From the NCBI RefSeq assembly GCF_900106765.1, contig NZ_FNNG01000008.1, positions 62,001-126,000 of the forward strand: a stretch of 64,000 nt of DNA, read 5' to 3'. This document shows positions 29,467-48,454 of this stretch, one piece after another. This stretch comes from Tepidimicrobium xylanilyticum (GTDB lineage Bacteria; Bacillota; Clostridia; Tissierellales; Tepidimicrobiaceae). Each line of letters opens with the position of its first letter. Position 1 is the first letter of the stretch. The position numbers were made by a program, and so were the translations under genes. The notes beneath the pieces are model-generated. The model was not told the origin of the DNA. It ran no database searches and saw only the letters and a list, made by a program, of their open reading frames with translations.

Positions 29467-29499
29467 TCCATAATTTTCGGTTTGAAAGAGGTGATAGAA

Positions 29500-31023
29500 G
29501 TGGCTGAAAAGCTAATAGAGTTGAGAAATATTTCTAAACAGTTTCCAGGAGTACTAGCAAATGACAATGTAAGCCTTGATATAGAAAAGGGCGAGATTCA
29601 TGCAATTGTTGGAGAAAACGGAGCTGGAAAATCAACATTGATGAAGATATTGTATGGACTATATCAGCCAACTTATGGTGAAATATATATTAATGGAGAA
29701 CCTGTAAAAATAAAAACTCCATTGGATGCTATAAATCTAGGTATAGGCATGGTTCATCAGCATTTCATGTTGGTGCCTTCCTTTACGGTGGCAGAAAATA
29801 TAGTATTAGGAGTTGAGCCTAGAAAAAATAAGGTTTTTACAGATTATCATAAAGCAGTTAAAATAGCTGAAAAACTATCAGAGGAATATGGACTCAAAGT
29901 TGATCCCCATGCAAAGGTAGAATCCCTTTCTGTTGGGATTCAACAGCGTATTGAGATTTTAAAGGTATTGAACAAGGGTGCAGATATAATCATATTAGAT
30001 GAGCCAACAGCAGTTTTGACTCCCCAGGAGACAGAGGAGTTGTTTAAAGTTATTAGAAGTTTGGTAGACAAACTAGGTAAAACTGTAATCATAATAACTC
30101 ATAAGCTTCAAGAGGTATTAGATCTCTCTAATAGGGTAAGTGTCATGAGACAAGGAAGGATGGTAGGAACTTTAGAAACCAAAAATGCTAATGAGCAGAT
30201 ATTAGCAGAAATGATGGTAGGTAGGGAAGTTTTGTTTGAAGACCTAATGAGAAAAAACATATCTAAGAAGGAAGTACTAAAGGTTAAAAATATTAAAGCT
30301 AGGGACAACAGAGGACTTATAGCCTTAAAAGGTGTAAGCTTTAATCTTCATTCTGGAGAGATTTTAGGTATAGCTGGAGTAGAGGGCAATGGCCAATCAG
30401 AGTTATTAGAAGTATTGACGGGTTTAAGGTTGGCTGAAGAAGGTTCAATTTTGGTAAACGGAGTTGAAGCTATAAATAAGCAGCCGCTGGAAATAAGAGA
30501 ACTTGGTATATCCCATATACCTGAAGATAGATTATCAACAGGTCTTTCAAGGGAAGCTACTCTAACTGAAAATATGATTTTAGGTTTTCACAGGAAGGAA
30601 CCCTATGCTATAAAGGGAATCCACTTAAATAGGAAAAAAATCAGGGAGAGGGCAGATAGGTTAATCAAAGAATACGACATAAGGACTCCATCCCAAGATG
30701 TGATAGCAGATAATCTTTCTGGTGGGAATATGCAAAAGATGGTTATTGCAAGGGAATTCTCTTTTGATTCTGAAATACTTATAATAGCTCAACCTACCAG
30801 AGGAGTGGATATAGGTGCTATCGAGTTCATTCATAAGGAAATTATTAATAAGAGAAATGAAGGTGCTGCAATACTGTTAGTTTCTGCAGATTTAGATGAG
30901 ATTTTCAGATTATCTGACAGGATAATTACCCTTTATGAGGGTGAGATTACAGGGGAATTTTTAAGGGATGAAATAACGAAGAATGAAATAGGCTTATATA
31001 TGACTGGGAAAAGAAGGCTCTAG
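29500..31023 (+). CDS. Nucleoside ABC transporter ATPase (double-domain, YufO/NupO-like)
   Basis: Cytoplasmic ATPase with two tandem ABC domains, as in ribose/nucleoside-type importers. Domain 1: Walker A VGENGAGKSTLMK, signature LSVGIQQRIEILK, Walker B IIILDEPTAVLTPQE. Domain 2: degenerate Walker A AGVEGNGQSELLE, signature LSGGNMQKMVIARE, and Walker B LIIAQPTRGVDIGA, with Gln in place of the catalytic Glu; such asymmetry is normal in this family. I place the start at GTG 29500 (MAEKLIELRN), five bases after AGAGGTGA; the in-frame TTG at 29482 lies before that site. Length is 507 residues. Two permease genes follow. Confidence 0.91.
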   Translation: MAEKLIELRNISKQFPGVLANDNVSLDIEKGEIHAIVGENGAGKSTLMKILYGLYQPTYGEIYINGEPVKIKTPLDAINLGIGMVHQHFMLVPSFTVAENIVLGVEPRKNKVFTDYHKAVKIAEKLSEEYGLKVDPHAKVESLSVGIQQRIEILKVLNKGADIIILDEPTAVLTPQETEELFKVIRSLVDKLGKTVIIITHKLQEVLDLSNRVSVMRQGRMVGTLETKNANEQILAEMMVGREVLFEDLMRKNISKKEVLKVKNIKARDNRGLIALKGVSFNLHSGEILGIAGVEGNGQSELLEVLTGLRLAEEGSILVNGVEAINKQPLEIRELGISHIPEDRLSTGLSREATLTENMILGFHRKEPYAIKGIHLNRKKIRERADRLIKEYDIRTPSQDVIADNLSGGNMQKMVIAREFSFDSEILIIAQPTRGVDIGAIEFIHKEIINKRNEGAAILLVSADLDEIFRLSDRIITLYEGEITGEFLRDEITKNEIGLYMTGKRRL

Positions 31024-31041
31024 GGTAAGGAGGTATATGAT

Positions 31042-32115
31042 ATGAAGAATAAGAAAAATACAGAGTATCTAATTTCATTATTTCTATCAATATTAGCTTC
31101 TCTCGTAATTGGAGCATTTATAATGATGGCTAATGGCAGACATCCTATAGTAGGCTATATATCACTGATCAATGGTGCTTTTGGTTCAAAGTATAATATA
31201 GCAACGACTTTAGCTAAAACGGTGCCTTTAATTCTGACAGGTTTTGCTACAAGTATATCTTTTAGAAGTGGTATTTTTAACATTGGAGGAGAAGGACAGC
31301 TATATTTGGGAGCTTTTGGTGCAGCCCTTGTAGGTATTACCTTTGTGAATTTACCAAGTATAATAGGCATACCTTTTGCTATTTTAATTAGTGCTATAAC
31401 TGGAGGAATTTATGCGTTACTTCCTGCCATATTGAAGGTTAAATATAATATAGATGAAGTGATTGTAACCATAATGCTAAATACGGTTGCGGTTCTATTA
31501 ACTGGGTATTTAGTAAACTATCCCTTTGCTTCAGAAGTAGGTAAGCTAGGTGCTACTGAGGTTATAGCAGACACTTATCAATTATCTCGATTAGTTAGAC
31601 TATCAACATTGAATACTAGTATCTTTCATGTTATTGTAATTGGAATCATAATGTACTATCTTTTAGAGAGAACATCCATAGGATATGAAATTAAAATGGT
31701 AGGGCAGAATGTGAATTTTTCCAAATATGGTGGAATCAATGTAAAGAAAAGAATGATATTTGCCATGGTAGTATCTGGCGCCCTATGTGGAATAGCAGGA
31801 GCCTTTGAAGTATTAGGTGTTCACTATAGATTCTTACAGCATATATCACCAGGGTATGCTTGGGATGGTATGTTAATTGCTCTGATAATTAAGAACAATC
31901 CTATTGGAGTAGTTTTGATGTCCATATTCTTTGGAGCTTTGAAAACTGGTTCTATTTCTATGGAAAATGCAACGGGAATTCCATCAGAACTAATTTCTGT
32001 TATACAATCTATAATCATACTATTTATAGCAGGAGAAGCTGGATTTAAAGCTAAGATTCAAAGTTATTTTGCAAATAGAGGAAAAAGAAAAAAGGCAGGT
32101 GAGGAGAATGTTTAA
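31042..32115 (+). CDS. Nucleoside ABC transporter permease (YufP/NupP-like)
   Basis: BPD_transp_2-type membrane subunit with about ten hydrophobic segments. Helix 1 is LISLFLSILASLVIGAFIM. SISFRSGIFNIGGEGQLYLG (about 75-94) is the conserved family motif, and the central loop SIGYEIKMVGQN contacts the ATPase. Length of 357 is typical of the first permease of this pair. ATG follows AAGGAGGTATATGAT. Its last codons overlap the next permease by eight bases, indicating coupled translation. Confidence 0.92.
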   Translation: MKNKKNTEYLISLFLSILASLVIGAFIMMANGRHPIVGYISLINGAFGSKYNIATTLAKTVPLILTGFATSISFRSGIFNIGGEGQLYLGAFGAALVGITFVNLPSIIGIPFAILISAITGGIYALLPAILKVKYNIDEVIVTIMLNTVAVLLTGYLVNYPFASEVGKLGATEVIADTYQLSRLVRLSTLNTSIFHVIVIGIIMYYLLERTSIGYEIKMVGQNVNFSKYGGINVKKRMIFAMVVSGALCGIAGAFEVLGVHYRFLQHISPGYAWDGMLIALIIKNNPIGVVLMSIFFGALKTGSISMENATGIPSELISVIQSIIILFIAGEAGFKAKIQSYFANRGKRKKAGEENV

Positions 32116-33040
32116 GGAAATAATAAATCTTACATTGCTCCAACATACGATAAGGACAGCTACTCCCTTAATATTGGCGTCATTAGGAGGTTTGTTGACC
32201 CAACATGCGGGGATATTGAATATTGGTATGGAGGGTATGATTTTACTTGGAGCCTTTTTTGGAGTTGTCGGTAGCTACTTTTTTGGCTCATCTTTAGCTG
32301 GAGTTCTTTTAGCAGTAGGTGTTGGAGTGCTTATAGGCCTTTTATTTGCCTATTTTGTAATAGATTTGAAATCTGATGAATTCATAATAGGCATTGCTAT
32401 AAATATGCTTGCAGGAGGTTTAACAGTATTTTTACTTAGAAGTATATTTGGAGTTAAAGGAGCATTTTCTTCACCAGATATAGTACCACTTCCTAGATCC
32501 AATTTAAGTTTTCTAGGAGGTATTCCAATTTTAGATACCATATTTAACAACCATACTGTCTTTGTGTACGTAAGTTGGATACTAGTTGTATTGGTATATA
32601 TGTATTTATATAAAACGCCTCACGGAATATGGTTAAGGGCATCAGGAGAATTTCCTGAAGCTTTAGAAACTGCGGGGATTAATCCAAGAAAGATGAAGTA
32701 CTTAAGTTCTATACTTTGTGGAATTTTCTGTGGATTTGCAGGAGTTCACTTATCCCTAGGATATTTGACTTTATTTACAGAGAATATGAGTGCCAATAGA
32801 GGGTTTATAGCTATGGCAGCTATTATATTTGGAAGAGCACATCCTGTAAAAACTTTAATTGCAGCGTTTATGTTTGGATTCTTTGATGCTTTAGGTATAA
32901 GACTACAGGTAGTAGGTATACCATCTCAGTTTACACAGATGATACCTTATTTAGGAACCATAATAGTACTATTTATAGTAGCTAAAAACCATCTTAGGAA
33001 AAAGAAAAAGGTTTTAGAAGGAGAGTCATACAATGAATAG
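32108..33040 (+). CDS. Nucleoside ABC transporter permease (YufQ/NupQ-like)
   Basis: Second membrane subunit, shorter as usual (310 residues). Family motif LTQHAGILNIGMEGMILLGA (about 30-49) parallels that of its partner, and GIWLRASGEFPEALETAGIN forms the ATPase-contact loop. The start ATG 32108 (MFKEIINLT) overlaps the preceding stop by eight bases and follows AGGTGAGGAGA; an in-frame ATG at 32069 would extend into the partner gene. It in turn overlaps the flavoprotein gene by eight bases. Confidence 0.92.
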   Translation: MFKEIINLTLLQHTIRTATPLILASLGGLLTQHAGILNIGMEGMILLGAFFGVVGSYFFGSSLAGVLLAVGVGVLIGLLFAYFVIDLKSDEFIIGIAINMLAGGLTVFLLRSIFGVKGAFSSPDIVPLPRSNLSFLGGIPILDTIFNNHTVFVYVSWILVVLVYMYLYKTPHGIWLRASGEFPEALETAGINPRKMKYLSSILCGIFCGFAGVHLSLGYLTLFTENMSANRGFIAMAAIIFGRAHPVKTLIAAFMFGFFDALGIRLQVVGIPSQFTQMIPYLGTIIVLFIVAKNHLRKKKKVLEGESYNE

Positions 33041-34325
33041 GGAATATGATGTAATTATACTAGGTGGAGGAGTAGCAGGTATTTATGCTGCTAAGGCTCT
33101 AATTAAAGGTGGTAAGACTATAGCACTAATAGAAAGGGATTGTTTAGGTGGTGTGGCACTTAGATGGGGAGCTTTGCCTGTTAAAAGAGTACTTGATTAT
33201 TTTAAAGAGAATTCAGGAGATGTTGATAAACTACTTGATGGTTGGGAAGATGATTTGGTTGAACTGAGTAGAATGATTGAAAAGAATATTTCATTTTTAG
33301 GTGCGGATGTCTATTATGGTGAAGGTGAATTTATAGATTCTCATAATGTAATAGTAGGGGAAAAGGTCTTGAAAGGCGAATATATAATAATTGCTACGGG
33401 AACGGAACCAGCTAGTATTGACGGTATAACCATTGATGGAGAGATGATAATTACTCATAAGGAAGCCATAACTTTAAAGAACATTCCTAAGAGTATAATT
33501 ATACTTGGTGGAAATGTGGAAGGAATAGAATTTGCATTTCTTTATAGAGAACTAGGGATAGAGGTAGTACTTGTTGAAAAAGAAGATAAACTTTTGTTGG
33601 GTTATGATGATGATTTAGTAGAACCTATAGAAAAAAAACTATTAGAAAAAGGAGTTAAGATAATAAAGGGAAGAGCAGCAAATAAGGCCTATATTGAAGA
33701 GGGGAAAGTGAAAGTGGTTTTGGAAGATGGTTCTGTAATAAATGGTGAGAAGACATTGGTTACCTTTTTTAGGAAACCTAATTTTCCAAAAGGTATTGAA
33801 AAGCTAAATATAGGTTTAGATAAAGACAAGGTTCTTGTAGATAAGAATTTTAATACTAAAGAAGATAATATTTTTGCAATTGGAGACATAAATGGAATTA
33901 TAGGATTAGGAAATGTAGCCATAAATCAAGGGCTACAGGTAGCAGAATATATACTGAGTAAAAGAGATATAAGTATAAAGTACGAATACCTTCCTAGAGC
34001 GGTATTTACCTTGCCTGAAATAGCAGGTATAGGCAAACAAGAAGAGGAATTAAAGGGAGTTAAGTATAAAGTTGGATACTGTAATTTAAAGGAAACCTGG
34101 AGAGGCTGGGCAAGGGGTATAGAAGAAGGTTTTATCAAGGTAATCGTAGACGAAAGGAAGAATATATTGGGAATATGGATGGTAGGGAACTTGGTGTCAG
34201 AATACATAGGTCTGCTCAGCCCTTTATTTAATAGAAACCTTACAATAGATGATATAAAAAGGAATTTAATTATCCATCCTACCTTGATGGAAGGAATTCT
34301 GGAAGCAGTACTGAATATTCAATGA
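33033..34325 (+). CDS. Lipoamide-dehydrogenase-like FAD/NAD(P) protein lacking both redox cysteines
   Basis: Shaped like class I pyridine nucleotide-disulfide oxidoreductases: FAD site VIILGGGVAGIYAAK at the N-terminus, NAD(P) site IIILGGNVEGIEFAFLYREL (about 152-171), second FAD motif NIFAIGDING, and a C-terminal dimerisation domain ending with IHPTLMEGI, which keeps the His of the HxxxxE dyad. The redox CxxxxC (GGTCLNxGCIPxK in relatives) is here GGVALRWGALPVK, with Ala42 and Ala47, so normal dithiol chemistry is impossible. It may be a flavin reductase/oxidase or a binding protein. Overlaps on both sides place it firmly in the nucleoside operon, but its role there is unknown. ATG follows GAAGGAGAG. 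Confidence 0.85.
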   Translation: MNREYDVIILGGGVAGIYAAKALIKGGKTIALIERDCLGGVALRWGALPVKRVLDYFKENSGDVDKLLDGWEDDLVELSRMIEKNISFLGADVYYGEGEFIDSHNVIVGEKVLKGEYIIIATGTEPASIDGITIDGEMIITHKEAITLKNIPKSIIILGGNVEGIEFAFLYRELGIEVVLVEKEDKLLLGYDDDLVEPIEKKLLEKGVKIIKGRAANKAYIEEGKVKVVLEDGSVINGEKTLVTFFRKPNFPKGIEKLNIGLDKDKVLVDKNFNTKEDNIFAIGDINGIIGLGNVAINQGLQVAEYILSKRDISIKYEYLPRAVFTLPEIAGIGKQEEELKGVKYKVGYCNLKETWRGWARGIEEGFIKVIVDERKNILGIWMVGNLVSEYIGLLSPLFNRNLTIDDIKRNLIIHPTLMEGILEAVLNIQ

Positions 34326-34339
34326 TGGAAGGTGATAGC

Positions 34340-35086
34340 ATGCAACAACCACATATATTATTAAGACCAGGAGATGTATCTAAATATATTATACTTGCAG
34401 GAGATCCTGGTAGGATTTTGAGACTTGCTAATTTTTTAGATTCTTATGAGGAGTTAGCTTATAATAGAGAGTTTAGAACTATTAGAGGAAGCTATAAGGG
34501 AGTAGATATAACTGCTACATCAACGGGTATAGGAGCTCCTTCTGCTGCTATATGTATGGAGGAGCTAATAGCTTGCGGTGGAAAATACTTCATTAGAATA
34601 GGCAGTGGAGGTGCTGTACAGCCTTATATTAAACTTGGGGATTTAGTCATATCGACTGCAGCTGTTAGAGAAGATGGAACTTCAAGAATGTATGTTGAGG
34701 CAAGCTATCCTGCTGTTGCAGATTTAGAGTTGACAAAAGTGATTATAGATACTTGTAAGGAGTTAAGTTTTCCATATCATAGTGGACTTACAAGAAGCCA
34801 TGATTCTTTTTATATTGACAATGAAAAGGAGATAGTGGATTATTGGAATAAGAAAAATATACTATCTTCAGATATGGAAACAGCTATAGTTTTTACCTTA
34901 GCTCAGTTAAGGGCAGTTAAGGCAGCAAGCATATTGAATACTGTAGTAGAGTTTGATGATGATGTAAAAAGTGGAATTGAAGGTTATGTAAATAAAGAAG
35001 CTAGCACTATAGAAGGAGAGAAACGTGAAATAATGCTAGCATTAGAGTCAATATTTAGATTAGAAAAAATTAGCCTTAAAGGCTAA
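34340..35086 (+). CDS. Uridine phosphorylase-family nucleoside phosphorylase
   Basis: Cytoplasmic PNP/UDP-family enzyme splitting nucleosides with phosphate to free base and ribose 1-phosphate, acting on what the transporter imports. Family motifs: ILAGDPGRILRLA (phosphate and substrate loop), STGIGAPSAAICMEEL, IRIGSGGAVQPYIKLGDLVI, and SSDMETAIVF with the ribose-binding Met-Glu. The RTGTxGG-type uridine loop reads RIGSGGA, fitting the uridine phosphorylase branch, but purine activity cannot be excluded. The start is ATG 34340 after GGAAGGTGAT (248 residues); an ATG at 34322 overlaps the previous stop. The terminator begins inside the last codons. Confidence 0.88.
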   Translation: MQQPHILLRPGDVSKYIILAGDPGRILRLANFLDSYEELAYNREFRTIRGSYKGVDITATSTGIGAPSAAICMEELIACGGKYFIRIGSGGAVQPYIKLGDLVISTAAVREDGTSRMYVEASYPAVADLELTKVIIDTCKELSFPYHSGLTRSHDSFYIDNEKEIVDYWNKKNILSSDMETAIVFTLAQLRAVKAASILNTVVEFDDDVKSGIEGYVNKEASTIEGEKREIMLALESIFRLEKISLKG

Positions 35087-35095
35087 TTTTTTCTA
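35061..35095 (+). terminator. Intrinsic terminator overlapping the phosphorylase stop codon
   Basis: TAGAAAAAATTAGCCTT and AAGGCTAATTTTTTCTA form a near-continuous inverted repeat. The last codons (Ser-Leu-Lys-Gly-stop) encode the stem, so coding and termination signals overlap. It ends the nucleoside operon. Confidence 0.85.
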
Positions 35096-35116: not shown

Positions 35117-36166
35117 TTATCTTTTTATTTCATGTTTAATATTGAGTGCGAATTTTTTCGCTATTTCCTCTATATTTGGGACTTTATTAATTGCTCCTTT
35201 GTCATTAGCCACTGCCATTAAGGCAAAATAGGGTGGTAATCTAAAGGTTTTATTTATATTTAAACTGCTTATCAATTGTTTAGCTAGAGCATCTCCGCCA
35301 GAATGACCAGAAACGATTATAGAAAAAAGGGTTTTATCATAAAATTTAACCTTTCTAAATAGTGCTGTTAATCGGTTTATCACTGCCACAAGATTGGCAG
35401 TAATCATATCATTATAATTAGGACAAATGAATACGAGGCAATCGGTTTCCAATATGGCAGGGTAAACTTCTGTTACCACAACTCCTCCATAGAAACACTT
35501 AGCCTGTTCTCCATAGTGCTTACAGGTTTTATAAGGACAACCTATGCAGTCTACAATTGTACCATTTTGAATGTTGACTTCTGTTATGTCCATTCCATTT
35601 AAATTTTCTTTCACTATATCCCATAGGGTTAATGTGTTAGAATATTTTCTATTACTAGAATGGAGTACAAGAATTTTAGGATTTTCTATTCTCTTTATTT
35701 CATCTTGAATAAACCTTTTCCCCAATTCTTCACATAAGAATAAACAGACTTCTTCTAAAGATAGATTATACACTTTTATTAATGGGATGAAATTGTCCAA
35801 ATTTCCTGTAGCTTCTACCATAGGTCTACCGGGGAATCTGCAACCTAATAAATTGGATTTAAATATTATGGATTGGGCTTCAGTCTTTGTAAAGTGCTGG
35901 TATCTGCTGTGTATTAATACAATTCCTTCGGAACCAAGCAAAGAATCGTATCCCCTTTGGAACAATTTTTGGAAAAAAATATTTAGGTTATTACTGACTC
36001 CGGTTATAGGTAATTCTATAGCAAATATAAGCCTTGCATTTTTTAAGTCTGGTAAGGTCTCATAATCTGTCAAAATACTATAATCGATATCTTTGGTAGT
36101 TTTTTCAATCATCTTTTCTAAAAGGGAAGAAGGCTTTTCAGGTAATATCAAATAATATTTCTTCAT
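35117..36166 (-). CDS. Tandem flavodoxin-fold protein with four-cysteine motif
   Basis: The C-terminal half (about 170-349) is an NADPH-dependent FMN reductase/iron-sulfur-flavoprotein-like flavodoxin fold. It has ILVLHSSNRKYSNTLTLWDI, the cysteine cluster CIGCPYKTC plus a further Cys (CX2CX4CX8C), TDCLVFICPNYNDMITANL and SGHSGGD. The N-terminal half repeats the pattern in worn form: ARLIFAIELPITGVSNNLNI, then IHSRYQHFTK, without cysteines, suggesting internal duplication. FMN and possibly an Fe-S cluster are expected in the second half only. It is the last of five minus-strand genes and starts within the previous stop (ATGA overlap). The electron partner is unknown. Confidence is in the fold, not the reaction. 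Confidence 0.68.
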   Translation of the reverse strand: MKKYYLILPEKPSSLLEKMIEKTTKDIDYSILTDYETLPDLKNARLIFAIELPITGVSNNLNIFFQKLFQRGYDSLLGSEGIVLIHSRYQHFTKTEAQSIIFKSNLLGCRFPGRPMVEATGNLDNFIPLIKVYNLSLEEVCLFLCEELGKRFIQDEIKRIENPKILVLHSSNRKYSNTLTLWDIVKENLNGMDITEVNIQNGTIVDCIGCPYKTCKHYGEQAKCFYGGVVVTEVYPAILETDCLVFICPNYNDMITANLVAVINRLTALFRKVKFYDKTLFSIIVSGHSGGDALAKQLISSLNINKTFRLPPYFALMAVANDKGAINKVPNIEEIAKKFALNIKHEIKR

Positions 36167-37419
36167 ATTATACTCACTAACCTTTCATAGGTCTTTTCTA
36201 TCTTTTCGAATAATTTGGAAGGAAGATTAAGCTGTTCAATTTCTATCTTGTTATTTCTAAGCCTACACTTGGTACCCATATATGCTCTACCCATATAGGT
36301 AGCCCCATAAAACCAATCTCCTTTAATAGTAGAAATTATGGATAGAGCACCTGAAGAAAGACTGGGAGCGACATAGGGTTTAAATCCCAACTTTCTAATC
36401 TCCTTATTGGCATTTATAGTTTTATTGGTTAAGTATTCAGAAATATCTTCATCATAGTTTTCTATACTATCTGCTACGATTAATCCTTTTCCATGGGGAC
36501 CGAATACTCTACCTTCTTTTAAAAAATGGATTGTTTTTTTAGATTTTTTGGCATAAAAACTTGCTCTGCTATTCATAACTCCAAGCCCATAGCCTATGAT
36601 TTGATCTGAAGCTAACCCTTTAAAATCATATTTACCTTCTTCATCCTTATTGCTCTCTAAAAAAGCTACTTTACATAATAGGTCTACTGGGTCTGACACA
36701 ACAGCAAATATTCCTTTAAATCCTTCATTTCTTGCTAATGTTGCATATTCCTTTATTATTTCAGAATTAGATTCAAATTGAACCATTCTTACATCCTCCA
36801 CTTGGCTGCCTACAGGAGGTACCCCTTTAGAGGCACAGAAAACGAACATATCGCAGTCGAACAGCTGATCTTTATTCAATGGAAAAACTGCCGGGAAGGA
36901 TTCTTCATCGAAGGCTTTTACTATTTGGTTAATTTCGTATTCCCATCGTTTTAGCCTGTTGAAATTTCTATCATAGATTCCTATTTCTTTAATACAATCC
37001 TTACCCAATAACCTTAAACCGATCAAAAGAGTGCTACCTACATCCCCTAAAGCTAATAAGTTTATCTTCCACTTCGATTTGTTTCCTTTCTCTAACTCCA
37101 TTTTCCAATTAGGATACTGGGTATTAATTGAAATAACTAATCCTTTATTTATCTTATCTATTAACCAAGAGGGAATTGAATTGGAATAGTCCTTATTATC
37201 CAAAAGGAGTAAATCAACCCCCTCTTTTTTTAAGAATAACAAGGATGGATGACTTATTAAGAAACTTCTTCTGGATTCAAATGGGTTTAATCTATTTAGA
37301 AAATAGAGACTTCCTTCATATGTTATAATCTCTTTTTCCGAAATCCTCTCAAACTCATCGTATTCTAAAAAGGAGAATAAGTATTTGCCATTATGTTTGT
37401 AATAATTGATCATATCCAT
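36163..37419 (-). CDS. Lactate/malate-dehydrogenase-like protein with extra N-terminal domain
   Basis: Residues about 118-418 resemble the NAD-dependent LDH/MDH fold: nucleotide loop INLLALGDVGSTLLIGLRLL, strand-2 acidic end GIYDRN, FDCDMFVFCASKGVPPVG, FAVVSDPVDLLC (usually NPVD), and GPHGKG with the catalytic-type His. Expected substrate Arg residues are not in their usual places (VPPVGSQVEDVR; MNSRASF), so the substrate is probably not simple lactate or malate. Residues 1-117 form an additional alpha/beta domain absent from ordinary LDH/MDH. The start may be ATG 37419 or ATG 37413; AGGGGGT is better spaced for the latter. It lies 17 bases after the 1,612-residue gene and overlaps the flavoprotein gene by four bases. 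Confidence 0.65.
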   Translation of the reverse strand: MDMINYYKHNGKYLFSFLEYDEFERISEKEIITYEGSLYFLNRLNPFESRRSFLISHPSLLFLKKEGVDLLLLDNKDYSNSIPSWLIDKINKGLVISINTQYPNWKMELEKGNKSKWKINLLALGDVGSTLLIGLRLLGKDCIKEIGIYDRNFNRLKRWEYEINQIVKAFDEESFPAVFPLNKDQLFDCDMFVFCASKGVPPVGSQVEDVRMVQFESNSEIIKEYATLARNEGFKGIFAVVSDPVDLLCKVAFLESNKDEEGKYDFKGLASDQIIGYGLGVMNSRASFYAKKSKKTIHFLKEGRVFGPHGKGLIVADSIENYDEDISEYLTNKTINANKEIRKLGFKPYVAPSLSSGALSIISTIKGDWFYGATYMGRAYMGTKCRLRNNKIEIEQLNLPSKLFEKIEKTYERLVSII

Positions 37420-37436
37420 TTACCCCCTTATAATGC

Positions 37437-40400
37437 TTATTTGTAAACTAAATTTTCTATCCTTTTAAGATGTTCTAAATCCGCTTCTAAACAAGCGGAA
37501 GGTTTTAAAGTACGAATATGTTCAGTACTGGGGTATATATCTGGCTTTCTAGGAGAGACTAGTATTTCTCCTAAATTTTTTACTATTAAATTTTTTTCGT
37601 GAATATCCTGATATACTCTTTCAATAGTTTTAAAAATTTCTGTTGCGTTTTTTAGACAAGTTTCAGATAAATTATAGATATTTATAGTTGGAGTATTTTT
37701 AATGAAACTGGGTGAAACGTAAGGAAGTATTAAATTAACGCTAGGTATTAGATAATCCTGAAATCCTTCTTTTTCTACCATATCTCCACCTATAAAAGGA
37801 TATAAATCGCTTTCATTAAACCAAAGTTTTAAATTGGGAACGAAATAGGCACAGTCTACAGGTATATCTTTTACCTTTCCTACCTCTTGGCCTCTACCCG
37901 TTAGAATTCCAACTATTATCTTCTTTATGCTAATATTAGCTTCCTTCAACAAAGGCACAATTACATTTAACCTATAGCCTTTATGGAGTAAGTCATCTAC
38001 TAAAATCACTGGTCTATCGAAGGATTTTATCACTTTTGTCTGTTCTCTTAGGCTTAAATAATTAGGGTAAGATTGAATGGTAAAATCAGTTATACCTGTA
38101 TTAAATATCTTTTCAGTATGCATGGTTTTAGTAATGGTATTAGGTAGTACTGTTCCGTTTAGTATGGAACCAAAGGGCACACAGATATTTGGACCTAAAA
38201 CTTTATTTCTTTTTTGGACAATGGGTACTTCATTAGTTTTGCAAATTTTTTCGATTAATTTGCTATAAATCATATCCCTATTGTAGGAAATCAACAACTC
38301 TCCTGGATATAAGTTGGAAACAGCTTTCTTTAATTTTTTCCTAGTCTTCTCGATAACCTTGCATATTTCTTGATTGCCTTCAAAGGGTGGTTTTAATAAA
38401 TTTTCTAAATCCTGGTTTAGAGTTATAGGATTATTCATATCCACCATAAAAATCTGACAGTTATTGTATTTAAAGGGAGTTTCAATAAACCCTTGATCCT
38501 TAAGGTTTTCGAGTATGAATTTCAAATTATATTGAGTTAAACAGTTCTTAAAAATGGCATAATTATAGTCTGAATTGATACAATAGCTTAATGTTTCATT
38601 AATAATTATTTCAGCACTTTTATAGCTATTGTCCTTAGTATAAATACCAGATATTAATACCATCCTACCCTTAGCATGCTGCCTAAGATACTCTGTAATA
38701 TTGGTGTTTTTAAATTCATCATACAACATGCTATTTTTAACCCAGTAGAGGGTTGAAAATCCTAATATAGACCCATCTTTAGTTTCTTTAACTAATACTA
38801 TAGTTGGACTCAATTTATTCTTTAATTCATAGATGCTTTCAATATTTATTACCTGAGCAACCTCACCACCTATATATTCAATTAATTTATCATCTATTGT
38901 TTCTATTATTTCAGTTTCCATAGTCTTAGTTTGAACTAGATATTTATACTGAGGTTCGTTCAAATAGAGCCCATACCTATAAATGTATCTTTGGGCTAAT
39001 GGGTCTATTAGATTAGAAATATCTCTATTTAAATCTATTAATTGTCTAATTTGAGATGAGCTAATATCTTCATATTGGGGAGGAAGGGAAAGCTTTAATA
39101 CTTTACCCTTTATTCCATTAATTCTTTCTTCTACGATGGTCTCTTCATCTTCTGTAGATTGTAAACTCTTTCGATCGAAAACTATATGGTTGAATTCGTT
39201 TATTAATCCATTTTTTTTGTAAGCGGAAGCATTAACTAAAACATCTGTACCTACTACAATATATAGATCCTTATTTTCAAATAGAGATTTCAACTTAGTC
39301 AAATCCTTATCATTACTTATATTGATAGGTGTTTCACTAGGGAATAAATACACATCCCTTTCATGGGCGATGGTTATATTGATAATATCTCTTCTAAACT
39401 TATGAGGCTGGGTCCTTTTAGACCATGAAAATTCGTCTACAGCTAAATAGACCTCGAAGCCTTCCCTTTTAATTTCTGAAACGATTTTTTTATGACTTAG
39501 GGAGAAGGGATCGAAGCTGCCAGGGAAAAAGGCAATCCTTTTATGATTTTCCAACTTAATACTATCATGGTTTAATTCATAGTCTAATATAAATCTATAT
39601 ATGCTGTTTAAAGACGATGAATTGCTGAGAAAAACGAATTCGTCATCTTCTCTTTTAGGGAGTAGTGTCAGTATCTTTTTAGAAATCATGGTAAAAATCT
39701 CACACTTTTCTTCTAATAGCAATTTATTCGAATTGAAAATATGACTTCCTATAATTCTAAAGGCTTCAGTTTTGATTTCATTGTTAAATGAGGCCATTCC
39801 ATTTAATAATAGTCCTAGTAATCTATCCAGTCTTTTTTTATTTAAGCGTCTTTCTTCATTGAATCTTTTAGCATATTCTGGGTAGTTCTCTATACAAACT
39901 CCTATAGTTTTTAATAATAGGAATACTATCTGGATACTAGATTGTCTAATTTTTTCCTCTAAATCATCTATCACCTCATCCAATTCAGTTGGTTGAAGAT
40001 ATAACAGCAAACGACCCAAATAATTAGGTATATATTTGGTAAATTGGTAATTTTCCATTTCTAAAGCCCTTAAAAGTTCAACTGCAATATCATTTCGTTC
40101 TTCTTGAGATAAAAACTTATATATATGAAGTAGAGTATGTCCAGCATAATTACGTACTTTTTCTTTAGCACTAACTTTTAATAAGTTGCAAAAATGCATT
40201 CCAGTATAAAGTCCAAAAGTTTTTGGTGTTTTTTTGACCTGGTCATAGAGAATATCTATATTTACCTTTTTATTCATCCATTCCGTTGCAGTCTTTAGAT
40301 TTTTTAAGAATATATCAGAGGTATTTTCTTCTACACTCTTATAGTTGGTTTCTAAAATATTCAGTATGTGGGATTCCAGATTAAGTTTTTTACCTAATTT

Positions 40401-42275
40401 ATATTTTAAATAGTTTTCTGAAGGATAAGGTGAGAGGAGCAAATTTTTTTTCAACCAATTATTCAATAGAACTATAAAACCATCCTTTTTCACTAGTTCA
40501 TCGAGAATTTCGTCAATTATATCTAAAATAGTTAGCCTAACTTCTAAACTGCCTGAGTTTAATTGTGCAATAATATATTTATGAAGTCTTTTTAAATGCT
40601 CATCTTGTAAGTAATCGAGGGGAATGTATTTCAAAGTTTGGGCTAGATATAGTTGGCTTGTTGAGGTCAGCAGTTTATAATTATCATAATAAATCAATAA
40701 TAATTTAGAATATTTAACGTAGTTGTCCTCCCTTGCATTATTAAAAAGGGATTTTATAATCGTCTTTAAATTGTATTGCCAATCTATATGGGATTCTTCT
40801 ACCTTATGATCTGGATAAAGAATATAATTTAACAAATCTGATAATACCTGATAACTAGTAGTTTCCTGATTATAAACATTTATGGATTTGGGAGTTTCCT
40901 TTCTGTATTCCTCATCATATTGACTGATTAGAAGCCCAATTAATTCAGCAGCCTCCTTGCGAATATCTTCCTCTTTATGGAATAGTAGGTCTGTTAAGAA
41001 GTGCAATGTAACAATTTTTTGTCTTTGAGTTAAATAAGTTGAATATTCCTTAAATATCTGTAGATATTGACGAAGCTTTCTCCAGCTATATTCGGATCTA
41101 GCCATTTCCAGTATATTGTCGAAACTAGTATCATCTAACAGCTTAGCCATTAGGAATATATTATGTTCTATGGCGAAATATTTTATATTGTTAACTATTT
41201 CCTCATCCTTCATCAGGGCATAGGGCATGGCATCTTTTTTTTCTATGATTTTACTAGTTATACTGGTATCAACCCCTAAACTTATCATATAATCTTCAAA
41301 ATCCTTTAATTTTTTATATACCTTTTCGTATCTTCTCTCTTTTTTTGAATCTAAATTGTCCAATTTATTAAGTATAACGCTATAGGCTTTGTCTAATGTA
41401 TAGATATGCATCTTATAGGTATCTTCATCTTTTTTATTCTTTACTCTGAAATCTGCATAGATTAATACTAAGGATTCTAGAGGAAGGTTTTCTAATTCTA
41501 GGTCCCAAGTAGAATGATTAGTGGCAATATGACCAGTTTTTTCTATATTTAAACTGTTAAACCATTTTTCAGTATAGTAATAATGAAGATAAGGAACCCT
41601 ATCCTTGTCTTTATCTTCCACACCGTATTTACCTATATCATGGCCTAATCCTGCACCAACTATAATGCCTAAATCAATAGGTAGGCCTAAGTTTTTAAGT
41701 TGTCTACCTATATTAAGGCTAAGATGATTAACTCCAACTACATGATCTAATGTATTATGATTAGTTAAGGAAAGGTCTAGTTTCATCAATTCATATATCC
41801 ATTTGCTAAAAAAAGCTTCTTTGAAAATAAGATATTCTTCTAGAAATTTGCTTTCCCTTTCTTCTTCAGGATTCAAAAAGCTTATAGGATATCTATATAA
41901 AAAGCTATTTCTGCTATACTTCATTTCCAGATGGCAAAGTTTTCTTAAAAGGTTTAGGAAAAAAGAGACTAAAGGAGTAAGGTTTTCATCAAAATTCCTC
42001 CGGACTTTTTCCGGGAAGGAGAAGTTTAATACATAATCATAAATATAATAAAGCCATTCTAGTTCGTTGAATTTCTTATGCTTAATATAGAGTCCATGCA
42101 AAAGTTTGATCAAAGATAAGGCATCATACCTATTTTTTGAAATCGTATTGCTTAATCTGCTTTTAAACTCATTATTTTCAATAAAGATAAGGAAATCCTC
42201 TTGGTGGTATTTTATATAATCCTTTTCTAATTCTTCTAAAATAAAACTGTAAAATTCATTATAGGCTTTAATCAT
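37437..42275 (-). CDS. 1,612-residue HD / helical-repeat / nucleotidylyltransferase / GNAT-like / PRTase-like fusion
   Basis: No described function known to me. Visible parts in order: an N-terminal helical region; an HD phosphohydrolase-like domain (about 165-330; His178, then AGLGHDIGKYG with His212-Asp213); a long alpha-helical, HEAT-like stretch (about 385-900; for example HKEEDIRKEAAELIGLLIS); a NadD/cytidylyltransferase-like domain (about 911-1090; AFFPGSFDPFSLSHKK, VVGTDVLVN and ISSSQIRQLI); a GNAT-acetyltransferase-like segment (about 1125-1280); and a phosphoribosyltransferase-like domain (about 1305-1530; VILVDDLLHKGYR near 1425, then GILTGRGQEVG). In the nucleotidylyltransferase the first His of HxGH is Ser. 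Its start overlaps the sdaAA stop (ATGA). A nucleotide or cofactor modification role is inference. Confidence 0.75.
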   Translation of the reverse strand: MIKAYNEFYSFILEELEKDYIKYHQEDFLIFIENNEFKSRLSNTISKNRYDALSLIKLLHGLYIKHKKFNELEWLYYIYDYVLNFSFPEKVRRNFDENLTPLVSFFLNLLRKLCHLEMKYSRNSFLYRYPISFLNPEEERESKFLEEYLIFKEAFFSKWIYELMKLDLSLTNHNTLDHVVGVNHLSLNIGRQLKNLGLPIDLGIIVGAGLGHDIGKYGVEDKDKDRVPYLHYYYTEKWFNSLNIEKTGHIATNHSTWDLELENLPLESLVLIYADFRVKNKKDEDTYKMHIYTLDKAYSVILNKLDNLDSKKERRYEKVYKKLKDFEDYMISLGVDTSITSKIIEKKDAMPYALMKDEEIVNNIKYFAIEHNIFLMAKLLDDTSFDNILEMARSEYSWRKLRQYLQIFKEYSTYLTQRQKIVTLHFLTDLLFHKEEDIRKEAAELIGLLISQYDEEYRKETPKSINVYNQETTSYQVLSDLLNYILYPDHKVEESHIDWQYNLKTIIKSLFNNAREDNYVKYSKLLLIYYDNYKLLTSTSQLYLAQTLKYIPLDYLQDEHLKRLHKYIIAQLNSGSLEVRLTILDIIDEILDELVKKDGFIVLLNNWLKKNLLLSPYPSENYLKYKLGKKLNLESHILNILETNYKSVEENTSDIFLKNLKTATEWMNKKVNIDILYDQVKKTPKTFGLYTGMHFCNLLKVSAKEKVRNYAGHTLLHIYKFLSQEERNDIAVELLRALEMENYQFTKYIPNYLGRLLLYLQPTELDEVIDDLEEKIRQSSIQIVFLLLKTIGVCIENYPEYAKRFNEERRLNKKRLDRLLGLLLNGMASFNNEIKTEAFRIIGSHIFNSNKLLLEEKCEIFTMISKKILTLLPKREDDEFVFLSNSSSLNSIYRFILDYELNHDSIKLENHKRIAFFPGSFDPFSLSHKKIVSEIKREGFEVYLAVDEFSWSKRTQPHKFRRDIINITIAHERDVYLFPSETPINISNDKDLTKLKSLFENKDLYIVVGTDVLVNASAYKKNGLINEFNHIVFDRKSLQSTEDEETIVEERINGIKGKVLKLSLPPQYEDISSSQIRQLIDLNRDISNLIDPLAQRYIYRYGLYLNEPQYKYLVQTKTMETEIIETIDDKLIEYIGGEVAQVINIESIYELKNKLSPTIVLVKETKDGSILGFSTLYWVKNSMLYDEFKNTNITEYLRQHAKGRMVLISGIYTKDNSYKSAEIIINETLSYCINSDYNYAIFKNCLTQYNLKFILENLKDQGFIETPFKYNNCQIFMVDMNNPITLNQDLENLLKPPFEGNQEICKVIEKTRKKLKKAVSNLYPGELLISYNRDMIYSKLIEKICKTNEVPIVQKRNKVLGPNICVPFGSILNGTVLPNTITKTMHTEKIFNTGITDFTIQSYPNYLSLREQTKVIKSFDRPVILVDDLLHKGYRLNVIVPLLKEANISIKKIIVGILTGRGQEVGKVKDIPVDCAYFVPNLKLWFNESDLYPFIGGDMVEKEGFQDYLIPSVNLILPYVSPSFIKNTPTINIYNLSETCLKNATEIFKTIERVYQDIHEKNLIVKNLGEILVSPRKPDIYPSTEHIRTLKPSACLEADLEHLKRIENLVYK

Positions 42276-43138
42276 AAAACCCTCCTTTTATACTCCTCTC
42301 CCGTTGGGGTTGCAGCTACTCCTCCTAATGCAGTTTCCTTTAAGGATTCGGGCATAGCTTTACCTACCTTGTACATGGCTTCAACTACTTCATCAAAAGG
42401 TACCAAAGACTTAATTCCTGCTATTGCTAAGTCAGCTGAGATTAAAGCATTGATCACCCCAGAAGCATTCCGAAAGGCACAGGGAAACTCTACTAAACCA
42501 GCTACTGGATCACATACTAATCCCATTATATGAATTAAGGCAAAGGATGCTGCATTTAAAGAAGTTTCCACATCTTCTCCTAACATTTCCACTACTGCCG
42601 CAGCAGCCATAGCACTGGCAGCCCCACATTCTGCTTGACAGCCTCCTTCAGCTCCAGAAATGGTAGCGTTTTTTGCTATTATTTCGCCAATTCCCCCAGC
42701 CGTAAACAATCCACGAATCATATCTTCTTCCGTTAAATTAAATTTCTCTTTCACTGTAATGATAGCACTAGGAAGTATACCTGAGGCGCCTGCAGTTGGA
42801 GCAGCGACAATCTTTCCCATTGAAGCATTAACTTCGGAAGTTGATAGGGCTTTTGCCATGGCAGAGCTTATTAAATCCCCACAGATGGTTTTCCCCTTAT
42901 TTCTATAGTCTTCCAGTTTTTTAGCATTGCCTCCTGAAAGTTTTGAAACGGAGATAATTTCTTTATCTAGTCCACTTTTAGCAGATTTTAACATAGTGTC
43001 TAGCACCAATTTCATTTTATCCATTAGTTCATCATACGTCATTTTATTATAATCCATTTCTTTCTCCATAACTATTTCCGATATTCTTTTATTCTTTTCT
43101 TTACATAATTTGAGCAATTCTTTTCCAGTATTGAACAT
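42272..43138 (-). CDS. sdaAA: L-serine dehydratase, iron-sulfur-dependent, alpha subunit
   Basis: Catalytic subunit converting L-serine to pyruvate and ammonia with a [4Fe-4S] cluster, a main route of serine fermentation in clostridia. Conserved family features: APTAGASGILPSAI, the cysteine region GAEGGCQAECGAASAMAAA, and GLVCDPVAGLVEFPCAFRN, which supply cluster ligands. Length of 288 is typical of the two-subunit Firmicutes enzyme. It starts two bases after the beta subunit gene and overlaps the following giant gene by four bases. The ribosome site AAGGAGGG for that gene lies within its own 3' end. Confidence 0.95.
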   Translation of the reverse strand: MFNTGKELLKLCKEKNKRISEIVMEKEMDYNKMTYDELMDKMKLVLDTMLKSAKSGLDKEIISVSKLSGGNAKKLEDYRNKGKTICGDLISSAMAKALSTSEVNASMGKIVAAPTAGASGILPSAIITVKEKFNLTEEDMIRGLFTAGGIGEIIAKNATISGAEGGCQAECGAASAMAAAAVVEMLGEDVETSLNAASFALIHIMGLVCDPVAGLVEFPCAFRNASGVINALISADLAIAGIKSLVPFDEVVEAMYKVGKAMPESLKETALGGVAATPTGEEYKRRVL

Positions 43139-43140
43139 AT

Positions 43141-43812
43141 TTAAGCCCTCCTAATGGAATTAATACCCTTAATATATTGAATTTCTCCTAATTTTTTTAT
43201 TCTATCTATTACCTGATCTTTTATTGGATCATCTAATTCTATTACCATAGTTGCAATGTTGCCTTCTCGAGTTACCTTCATAGTAGCGATATTTATATCT
43301 TCATTTGCAAGTATTGCACTTATTCTACTAATTGTACCTTTTTGGTCCTGATATTTTAGCAATATAGTAGGATAATCTCCAGTAAATTCTACCTTATTTC
43401 CGTTTATATCTATTATGAGTATATTACCTCCTCCAATGGATGAACCAGTAATATAATAGTTTTCTTTATCTTTAAAATAAAAAACCATTTTTACCGTATT
43501 TGGATGAACATAGCCTAAATCAGCTTCTATAAATTCTATATCAATCCCCTTGTCTTTGGACATATTTAAGGAGTCTCTGATTCTTTCATCAGAGGGATCC
43601 ATACCAAGAATACCTGCTACTAAGGCTCTATCGGTACCATGTCCTCTGTAGGTTTTGGCAAATGAACCATGTAGGTAAAAGGTAACCTTATAAAAGTTGT
43701 TTCCTGCAATTTCTCTTCCTATTTTTCCAAGCCTTGCAGCTCCAGCAGTATGGGAACTTGAAGGTCCAATCATAATTGGCCCTAATATATCAAATATGCC
43801 ATAGTTTTTCAT
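43141..43812 (-). CDS. sdaAB: L-serine dehydratase, iron-sulfur-dependent, beta subunit
   Basis: Partner subunit, with the N-terminal SDH_beta domain (FDILGPIMIGPSSSHTAGAARLG, where SSSHTAGA is diagnostic) and a C-terminal ACT domain (about 150-220; LLKYQDQKGTISRISAILAN) that may bind serine or another amino acid for regulation. Length of 223 is normal. ATG follows AAAGGAGAG. It is the first gene of the five-gene minus-strand operon; upstream lies the pspC terminator and a TATAAT box. Confidence 0.95.
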   Translation of the reverse strand: MKNYGIFDILGPIMIGPSSSHTAGAARLGKIGREIAGNNFYKVTFYLHGSFAKTYRGHGTDRALVAGILGMDPSDERIRDSLNMSKDKGIDIEFIEADLGYVHPNTVKMVFYFKDKENYYITGSSIGGGNILIIDINGNKVEFTGDYPTILLKYQDQKGTISRISAILANEDINIATMKVTREGNIATMVIELDDPIKDQVIDRIKKLGEIQYIKGINSIRRA

Positions 43813-43861: not shown

Positions 43862-43888
43862 GGAATAAAAAAGGAGGGTTACCCTCCT
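43862..43888 (-). terminator. Intrinsic terminator of the pspC gene
   Basis: On the minus strand AGGAGGG-TAA-CCCTCCT is followed by TTTTTTATTCC. It ends the PspC-domain gene just before the serine dehydratase operon. Confidence 0.85.
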
Positions 43889-47511: not shown

Positions 47512-47542
47512 AAAAATCCTCTTCTTTGGAAGAGGATTTTTT
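47511..47542. terminator. Bidirectional terminator between pbpA-like gene and nadK
   Basis: AAAAAATCCTCTTC and GAAGAGGATTTTTT form a perfect 14-bp stem around TTTG. A and T runs within the stem make it work in both directions, and it joins the two convergent stop codons directly. Confidence 0.92.
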
Positions 47543-48354
47543 TATAGAAATTTGCTTTTTAGATTATTCCAATACATATTTTTATCAAAGTTTAATCTAG
47601 ATATGGTTTTAGGGGGAACGGTAAAGGTTATTTCAGTTATGTTATCATATTTGATTTCAAAACCATCTACTACTATTAGAATGGAATTTTCGTATCTATA
47701 TTCGGGCCTTACTGTAATTGGAATTTCCCCTGGTACCACTGTACTATTAGATAAGGAACGGTAAGCCCTTGAGCTGATGGGAGATAAAGGTGTAATTTGT
47801 AAAGTCTTTAAAGAAGGATATATTATACTCCCTCCTGAGGAAAAATTATAAGCTGTGCTTCCAACAGGAGTGGAAATAATAACACCATCTCCACAGAATT
47901 TTTCCAGATGGTTTCCATCTATATAAATTTCCAAATGGACTACTTTGGATTGGATTCCTTTAATAACTATTTCATTGACTCCATATAGTTCAAAACAATT
48001 GTTTTGAGTGCATATATTGGATTTTACTAAATAGATTTCTTCTATGACATAATCCTTATTCATATATTTTTCTATGAATTCATCTATATTTTCAGGCAGT
48101 ATTTCTTGGAAGAAGCCCAAATGACCTGTATTAATTCCTATGAACGGTATACTTGGAAACTGATATTTGTGTACGGCTCTTAAGAAAGCACCATCGCCAC
48201 CAATGCAGATATTTAGTTCAGCTTTATCATCATATTTTTTAGGGATAACAAATCCTTTTTTTTTCAGTTTATCAACTAATATATTATAGGTTTGTTTTGA
48301 ATGAGAATTATAATTGTAAATAACATTTATAATTCTCTTATTATCTAGAATCAA
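47542..48354 (-). CDS. nadK: NAD kinase
   Basis: Phosphorylates NAD+ to NADP+. Family motifs: ICIGGDGAFLRAVHKY (GGDG, ATP/NAD site), GINTGHLGFFQE, GVNEIVIKG, and CGDGVIISTPVGSTAYNFSS. From the TTG start at 48354, which sits seven bases after TTTGGAGGG, the protein has 270 residues, normal for Firmicutes. The open frame extends upstream to 48513 but that part is Phe/Tyr/Ile-rich, has no ribosome site and would overlap the divergent pseudouridine synthase start. NADP made here supports NfnAB and biosynthesis. Confidence 0.92.
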   Translation of the reverse strand: MILDNKRIINVIYNYNSHSKQTYNILVDKLKKKGFVIPKKYDDKAELNICIGGDGAFLRAVHKYQFPSIPFIGINTGHLGFFQEILPENIDEFIEKYMNKDYVIEEIYLVKSNICTQNNCFELYGVNEIVIKGIQSKVVHLEIYIDGNHLEKFCGDGVIISTPVGSTAYNFSSGGSIIYPSLKTLQITPLSPISSRAYRSLSNSTVVPGEIPITVRPEYRYENSILIVVDGFEIKYDNITEITFTVPPKTISRLNFDKNMYWNNLKSKFL

Positions 48355-48454
48355 ATAATTTCCCTCCAAACAATATAACTTTAAATTTGCAATTTTTTTG
48401 GTATAATAAACTGTATATATTATACAATAAAAGATGAAATATTTGGAGGGCAAT

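Follow-up and report, generated by a model that had tools for sequence, protein, structure and literature searches.

A conserved gene triad beside the L-serine dehydratase genes of Tepidimicrobium xylanilyticum: co-inheritance, domain architecture and possible nucleotide-cofactor chemistry

In the 64-kb stretch of the Tepidimicrobium xylanilyticum genome analyzed here (the window, to which all coordinates refer, from a 3.0-Mb draft genome of 38 contigs, G000), the L-serine dehydratase genes sdaAB and sdaAA are followed by three genes that encode a 1,612-residue multidomain protein (BIG), a protein resembling lactate and malate dehydrogenases (LDHL) and an FMN-reductase-like flavoprotein (FLAV). 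Our results showed that, apart from a few exceptions, the genes for BIG, LDHL and FLAV are passed on together, and that the unit they form is separable from the serine dehydratase genes. The domain content of BIG, together with a natural knock-out found in one genome, tentatively suggests that the triad produces, and controls the quality of, a nucleotide-type cofactor or an activated nucleotide. Each of its parts has a known fold, but neither the multidomain protein nor the triad itself appears to have been described; a literature search limited to open-licence papers, in the portions of those papers that were accessible, returned no description of the triad, in agreement with the remark in the initial annotation of the window that no described system has this content.

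Inheritance of the triad and its serine dehydratase neighbours

We compared 41 regions (13.7-27 kb) from genomes of the order Tissierellales, that of the window among them. In 40 of these, LDHL comes immediately after BIG and FLAV after LDHL, all on one strand; the sole exception is locus L032 of genome G083. As the arrangement recurs so regularly, it is not due to chance. Among 199 genomes of the order, 92 matched a search with BIG, of which five (G003, G007, G058, G068 and G089) matched around the NadD-like part alone and were excluded, leaving 87 genomes whose matches extend beyond that part. LDHL was observed in 84 genomes, every one of them with BIG, and FLAV in 83, of which 82 carry BIG and the remaining one (G064) holds only the gene stump described below. 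In a phylum-wide draw of 398 genomes for BIG, and of 388 for LDHL and for the phosphoribosyltransferase-like (PRT) domain of BIG, the identical eight genomes carry BIG (8/398), the PRT domain (8/388) and LDHL (8/388); two of the eight belong to the order, and no stand-alone relative of the PRT domain was found at E 1e-5 among the 388 genomes.

A scan of the one-genome-per-species collection of GTDB yielded 466 confirmed stretches encoding BIG relatives, a number in which a gene may count twice because two patterns were used. Within the best 80 of these 466 stretches, from which the named loci are drawn, LDHL was recognized in 74 and FLAV in 65, some of the misses being contig ends. The carriers include Tissierella, Sedimentibacter, Soehngenia, Caloramator, Tepidibacter, Alkaliphilus, several Clostridium, Anaerovorax and Dethiosulfatibacter, which we take to be anaerobes, as well as records labelled Atribacterota and Calditrichales; locus L147 is that of Clostridium carboxidivorans P7. 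Departures from the compact order were found in two Marinisporobacter genomes and in G522, where BIG stands alone and LDHL and FLAV adjoin each other elsewhere, and in Clostridium thermobutyricum (L092), where LDHL and FLAV lie four open reading frames (ORFs) downstream of BIG. In addition, the pairwise distances of the three proteins are correlated (r 0.83-0.90, with none of 199 permutations equally high), as common inheritance along the species tree would also make them. The proposal that the three downstream genes form a unit was borne out: the pattern set as its refutation, homologues scattered without their partners, was looked for and is not what the genomes show.

The serine dehydratase genes, in contrast, are not part of this unit. 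The initial annotation had presented the locus as a five-gene operon built on L-serine dehydratase, a description that is contradicted by the distribution of sdaAA: the alpha subunit was detected at E ≤ 1e-20 in 179 of the 199 genomes, 107 of which lack BIG, and 15 of the 87 genomes with BIG gave no SdaAA match at this threshold. When 71 BIG places were compared with 41 sdaAA places among the matches listed, sdaAA lay within 200 bases of BIG in at least 27 genomes of the order (again among the matches listed). Moreover, 13 triad-free genomes opened around sdaAA all possess the sdaAB-sdaAA pair without the triad, and at 11 of these 13 loci the next gene is a homologue of genes that follow FLAV in triad-bearing relatives (labelled MATE or GltA). 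In G064 (L166, 4376-5468), a 75-residue stump corresponding to FLAV residues 275-349, with 73% identity and a stop inside, lies directly behind sdaAA, which shows that the triad was deleted there and sda retained, rather than that the triad was absent from the start. In loci that are not of the Tissierella type, different genes flank the triad, and the sda genes appear to have come to stand before it only in a Tissierella-type lineage.

Domains and conserved sites of the three proteins

From sequence matches and structural models, BIG is predicted to comprise an HD metal-hydrolase domain, a HEAT-type solenoid, a NadD-like nucleotidyltransferase, a probable GNAT acyltransferase and a divergent PRT-like domain, the last two being less certain (Table 1). 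The models of the N-terminal half (900 residues) and of the C-terminal half (712 residues) reached predicted template modelling scores (pTM) of 0.84 and 0.87. For the N half, both the Foldseek and the VIA rows consist of HEAT/ARM-type proteins, the best with Z 14.8 over 250 residues at 4.8 Å; this Z is near what helical repeats commonly reach, and a list filled in this way has no bearing on the HD fold. The VIA rows for the C half centre on the NadD-like part, which also matches Pfam CTP_transf_like above the gathering score (1.3e-8) and a profile of 13 NadD proteins in hhalign (probability 99.2, E 9e-20). The probable GNAT domain was placed by the secondary structure of the model, since the Foldseek lists give no aligned range and its fold rows come from the whole C half; neither Pfam nor a PDB profile search (A7) gave a convincing match in this region. 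In the PRT-like domain, the loop that would bind phosphoribosyl pyrophosphate (PRPP) carries D1427 in 110 of 111 sequences and D1428 in 102 (N in eight, E in one), which we take to be the acidic pair of the type I PRT PRPP loop, and two PRT rows occur in the Foldseek viral list. Of the domains proposed at the outset, the HD hydrolase and the nucleotidyltransferase were thus confirmed and the phosphoribosyltransferase weakly so, while the solenoid and the probable GNAT domain had been missed; the domain matches likewise bear out the view that the three proteins fit nucleotide chemistry, a dinucleotide-dependent dehydrogenase fold and a flavoprotein. No curated family in Pfam, NCBIfam, PHROGs or PADLOC covers full-length BIG, in spite of the 466 stretches that encode its relatives, and its architecture points to nucleotide-cofactor chemistry.

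Site conservation was counted after short hits and copies sharing their last 250 residues had been removed, leaving 111 of 164 hits for BIG (minimum 1,400 residues), 103 of 154 for LDHL (300) and 88 of 109 for FLAV (300). The six HD ligands are almost invariant in BIG: H178 was found in 109 sequences, and H212, D213, H231, H254 and D275 each in 110. The same holds for the NadD-like sites G919 and D922 (110), H928 (111), S1072 (109), and S1073 and R1077 (110). Here S1072, S1073 and R1077 represent the SSTxIR-type motif of NadD and H928 the second histidine of (H/T)xGH. Nevertheless, BIG departs from the canonical NadD proteins of these genomes, all 13 of which have PIHxGH, PPHK and a (S/C/T/N)(Y/F)(T/S) stretch. 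In BIG the first histidine of (H/T)xGH is replaced (of the 111 sequences, 100 have S925, ten have T and one has A), the profile alignment contains no SYT-type stretch, and a stretch specific to BIG includes D947, W951 and K953 (111/111) and E948 (110/111); its score against TIGR00482 (NadD) is 42.2 bits, compared with a cut-off of 112.45. As the canonical acceptor motifs are replaced, the acceptor should differ, and it is probably not nicotinic acid mononucleotide (NaMN). BIG was also rejected as a substitute for nadD, because a canonical nadD is present as well; in the source genome it adjoins a yqeK-like gene at another place.

The HD domain of BIG follows the ligand order H...HD...H...H...D, which has been reported for dinuclear YqeK (PMC8177086). 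Membership of the YqeK family was rejected, as the ligand order fits and the profile does not, and resemblance alone is claimed. A precedent for joining the two activities comes from the minimal mycoplasma JCVI-Syn3A, in which a NadD-YqeK fusion (JCVISYN3A_0380) makes nicotinic acid adenine dinucleotide (NaAD), and its HD (YqeK) part acts on NaAD and on the cytosine and uracil analogues in a proofreading role (PMC9426524). Like the fusion, BIG unites an HD hydrolase with a nucleotidyltransferase of NadD fold in a single polypeptide; unlike the fusion, whose domains presumably stand in another order, BIG has the HD domain first, the HEAT solenoid in between, GNAT- and PRT-like domains after, replaced NadD motifs and no YqeK profile match.

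LDHL can be aligned with malate and lactate dehydrogenases, with Ldh_1_N just below its gathering score (2.7e-5; 24.7 against 27 bits). R211, N218, D243, M282, R285 and H309 are invariant in all 103 sequences, and R211, R285 and H309 presumably correspond to the substrate arginines Arg109 and Arg171 and the catalytic His195 of lactate dehydrogenase. With that family LDHL shares the nucleotide-binding core and these three positions; it differs in the extra N-terminal residues, in a score against TIGR01771 (L-lactate dehydrogenase) of about a tenth of the cut-off (31.7 against 303.55 bits), and in two further positions that are uniform in all 103 sequences, namely Met in the column equivalent to Asp168, which we take to be the partner of the catalytic histidine, and Asp in place of the Asn of the NPVD stretch. 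These two replacements suggest a relocated acid and a changed substrate.

In FLAV, the FMN_red match (4e-20) covers residues 163-316. The initial annotation had called the protein a tandem flavodoxin fold, of which the FMN_red domain stands; a second, N-terminal domain was not clearly detected, Flavodoxin_2 being weak in 3 of 16 members. A PDB sequence and profile search (A3) gave no match at E ≤ 0.01. The four invariant cysteines within the FMN_red domain are such as would be expected of an iron-sulfur flavoprotein, and they make an Fe-S site possible, although the CX2CX4CX8C spacing and the extra N-terminal region set FLAV apart from that family.

A natural knock-out and readings of the triad

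In genome G083, a single contig that is 98% complete, neither LDHL nor FLAV was matched at E ≤ 0.001. Its BIG shows N, Q, Y, a gap, K and K in place of the six HD ligands, and G919, D922, S1072, S1073 and R1077 are likewise lost. At every HD and NadD-like position except H928, a deviating sequence among the 111 is that of G083; the only further deviations are L028 at H178, which is truncated, and L126 at S1072. This BIG was left out of the hhalign profiles and was included in alignments A1 and A4-A7. Ten relatives from genus g31 (Sedimentibacter type) served as its reference, and G091, from another genus of the same family, as a control: the identity of the HD domain was 28.7% for G083 and 67.0% for G091, and that of the NadD-like domain 38.9% and 69.2%, whereas the values were 57.7% and 60.5% for GNAT and 53.0% and 64.8% for PRT. 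Columns that are at least 95% conserved elsewhere were retained in G083 at 20/52 in HD, 32/52 in the NadD-like domain, 49/58 in HEAT, 10/10 in GNAT and 39/43 in PRT. In this one genome, the decay is selective for the HD and NadD-like domains and accompanies the loss of the partner genes, and it thereby splits BIG into a part tied to LDHL and a part (GNAT, PRT) that survives without it. The decay in the absence of LDHL and FLAV links the HD and NadD-like chemistry to LDHL, and as genomes that lack FLAV alone keep these sites, the tie is to LDHL rather than to FLAV.

Beyond domain identity, co-inheritance and site conservation, what follows is what we infer. The NadD-YqeK precedent, the two like domains of BIG and the replaced NadD motifs led us to propose that a nucleotide cofactor, or an activated nucleotide, is reserved for LDHL, and we give a probability of roughly 0.35 to the triad being a machine that builds a non-standard nucleotide or dinucleotide, removes faulty product and serves a dedicated dehydrogenase. 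In such a scheme, the PRT-like domain would join a base to PRPP, and the NadD-like domain would transfer a nucleotidyl group from a nucleoside triphosphate to the PRT product or to another phosphorylated acceptor, probably not NaMN, to give a dinucleotide-like product. The six-ligand HD site would hydrolyse wrong or damaged product, much as the YqeK part of the NadD fusion does in JCVI-Syn3A (PMC9426524). The GNAT domain may acylate the substrate or the product, and the HEAT solenoid may hold the catalytic sites together. LDHL, as a putative 2-oxo/2-hydroxy-acid-type dehydrogenase with an NAD(P) fold and a changed active-site acid, would use or finish the product, and FLAV, the most dispensable part, would supply electrons. 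Together, the architecture and the knock-out split give a short list of direct assays for an apparently undescribed pathway.

A number of observations weigh against the proposed cofactor machine. The knock-out argument comes from one genome, the sole one of its genus in the sample, in which HEAT has diverged too (identity 36.8%, against 51.0% for G091) and the PRT residues K1432 and R1435 are also altered. Three of the 87 genomes with BIG have no LDHL match and five no FLAV match, several of these assemblies being fragmented; Fonticella and two genomes labelled Atribacteria gave no FLAV match and retain LDHL and intact BIG sites, so that FLAV is dispensable in them. Support for the PRT assignment is weak, with Pribosyltran at E 0.0048 (16.7 and 17.9 bits against a gathering score of 26.3), nothing convincing in a PDB profile search (A6; best E 0.055), and a kinship with xanthine phosphoribosyltransferase that is not claimed, as it amounts to one 60-column profile alignment of probability 6.5. 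Against a profile of 13 YqeK-like proteins the HD domain gave no match in hhalign (probability 1.8, E 0.027). Speaking against the reading of sda as a mere neighbour, a lone ACT domain of 89-95 residues, like the C-terminus of SdaAB, lies 27-44 bases upstream of BIG at three loci (L050:7289-7555, L062:12350-12634 and L094:3420-3704), and these ORFs appear to be under purifying selection (simple dN/dS values between 0.14 and 0.32, synonymous sites being close to saturation). They make a regulatory tie to serine possible, and as the sole evidence in this direction they indicate that serine-linked control may have been kept.

Among the alternatives, a role in NAD(P) homeostasis fares best and is nonetheless doubtful. 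The triad would salvage, repair or clear damaged forms of ordinary pyridine nucleotides, its NadD-like and HD domains acting as a pair for synthesis and proofreading on NAD-type molecules. In its favour are the NadD fold (Z 19), the YqeK-like ligand order, the adjacency of nadD and a yqeK-like gene in the source genome and the published fusion (PMC9426524). However, the canonical NadD motifs are replaced and the TIGR00482 score is low, the canonical nadD is also present, and ordinary upkeep of NAD would hardly be confined to the eight genomes of the phylum draw. We consider a signalling or regulatory role unlikely, in which the domains would produce, detect and break down a nucleotide signal and LDHL and FLAV would serve as redox sensors. 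HD hydrolases often cleave signalling nucleotides (PMC8177086), and the HEAT scaffold and the lone ACT domains would suit a regulatory device, but a mere sensor would have no need of R211, R285 and H309, which all LDHL sequences keep.

A more specific form of the proposed cofactor machine is one that we also hold to be rather unlikely: BIG would make and proofread a novel redox dinucleotide, or a nucleotide-linked acyl or hydroxy-acid cofactor, used only by LDHL, and its HD and NadD-like domains would decay once that user was lost. If this were true, anaerobes would carry a private electron carrier beside NAD. About as unlikely is the modification of a macromolecule, in which the HEAT solenoid would hold a protein or RNA as the target of the nucleotide and acyltransferase domains of BIG; the length of the HEAT-type solenoid and the retention of the probable GNAT domain in G083 agree with this improbable account, which leaves the close tie to a small-molecule-type dehydrogenase unexplained. 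Least probable is the accessory pathway of serine degradation put forward initially, with the three proteins processing or supporting L-serine dehydratase, since the five-gene run with its 4-base overlaps between two hairpins, the proximity of sdaAA in at least 27 genomes and the three ACT domains upstream of BIG without adjacent sda are outweighed by the sdaAA and BIG counts and the 13 triad-free sda loci, which rule it out as the main reading, and by the other neighbours of the triad outside the Tissierella type.

Two origins and a function in defence were also rejected. None of the five proteins matched PADLOC at E ≤ 0.01, which speaks against anti-phage defence, and BIG, LDHL and FLAV had no PHROG match at E ≤ 0.001, which speaks against a phage origin. 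Among 72,556 plasmid records, a single one matched BIG at E ≤ 1e-20, and a plasmid-borne element was discarded. This record (NZ_CP154629.1, 2033595-2038145, with no annotated genes there), from Acetoanaerobium noterae, is filed as a plasmid, and its size of 2.6 Mb suggests that it may be a chromosome.

Gene run, mapped features and neighbouring genes

The five ORFs lie head to tail on the minus strand from 43812 to 35117, with spacings of 2, -4, 17 and -4 bases, and both the ORF coordinates and the junction bases agree with the initial annotation in this respect. Hairpins resembling terminators stand before sdaAB and after FLAV, so that one transcript across the five genes is plausible as a prediction. 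A terminator consensus scan of the region gave 6 sites where 6.1 were expected and listed, of these two hairpins, the upstream one alone; the downstream one was located by reading the sequence.

Table 1. Mapped features of the gene run in the window (pLDDT, predicted local distance difference test; E-values unless otherwise stated)
Feature	Position	Strand	Evidence	Remark
Terminator-like hairpin upstream of sdaAB	43872..43888	-	-11.1 kcal/mol, z -2.4; 4/200 shuffles fold as well	
sdaAB, L-serine dehydratase beta subunit with C-terminal ACT domain, 223 residues	43141..43812	-	TIGR00719 3.7e-78, above NCBIfam equivalog cut-off; ACT 8.5e-11	Lineage-specific neighbour, non-core
sdaAA, L-serine dehydratase alpha subunit, 288 residues	42272..43138	-	TIGR00718 2.9e-121, above NCBIfam equivalog cut-off	Lineage-specific neighbour, non-core
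BIG, multidomain protein, 1,612 residues	37437..42275	-	Models of both halves, mean pLDDT 89.4 (C half) and 89.5 (N half)	First gene of conserved triad
BIG, predicted HD metal-hydrolase domain, residues 160-335	41271..41798	-	Pfam HD 1.2e-4, above gathering score; 26/49 homologues at E ≤ 0.1	H178, H212, D213, H231, H254, D275
BIG, predicted HEAT-type alpha-solenoid, residues ~375-900	39576..41153	-	N-half model; HEAT in 32/49 homologues at E ≤ 0.1	
BIG, predicted NadD/NMNAT-like nucleotidyltransferase domain, residues ~911-1110	38946..39545	-	VIA Z 19.3, 187 residues, 2.7 Å to 4rpi_B	
BIG, probable GNAT acyltransferase domain, residues ~1118-1295	38391..38924	-	Fold: Foldseek 9evq_A 5.2e-5, 4lua 6.1e-5; viral GNAT rows	
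BIG, putative divergent phosphoribosyltransferase-like domain, residues ~1296-1540	37656..38390	-	Pfam Pribosyltran below gathering score; 19/49 homologues at E ≤ 0.1	Motif VILVDDLLHKGYR
LDHL, lactate/malate-dehydrogenase-like, 418 residues	36163..37419	-	LDH/MDH models match 17/17 members	~110 extra N-terminal residues
FLAV, FMN-reductase-like flavoprotein, 349 residues	35117..36166	-	FMN_red in 16/16 members	
FLAV cysteines C207, C210, C215, C224	35495..35548	-	88/88 FLAV	Possible Fe-S ligands
Terminator-like hairpin downstream of FLAV	35064..35092	-	-19.8 kcal/mol, z -7.6; 0/200 shuffles as good	Overlaps end of convergent plus-strand gene

Within the window, a convergent run beside FLAV (29482-35086, plus strand) contains ABC transporter genes, a pyridine nucleotide-disulphide oxidoreductase gene and a gene of the nucleoside-phosphorylase superfamily, and a NAD kinase gene (47542-48513, minus strand) is located some 4 kb from the sda genes on their upstream side. 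Among the labels given to neighbouring genes, MATE, GltA, FtsW, FHA and PBP were assigned by reading the sequences, and PspC, undecaprenyl-diphosphate-synthase-like and amine oxidase were checked. Of the 41 regions, 14 contain an undecaprenyl-diphosphate-synthase-like gene of about 214 residues, situated upstream of sda or in the vicinity of BIG (for example, L061:14002-14643); in the window it does not adjoin sdaAB. Four of the regions (L051:12555-14261, L048, L063 and L064) have a gene for a flavin-containing amine oxidoreductase on the upstream side of BIG or close to it.

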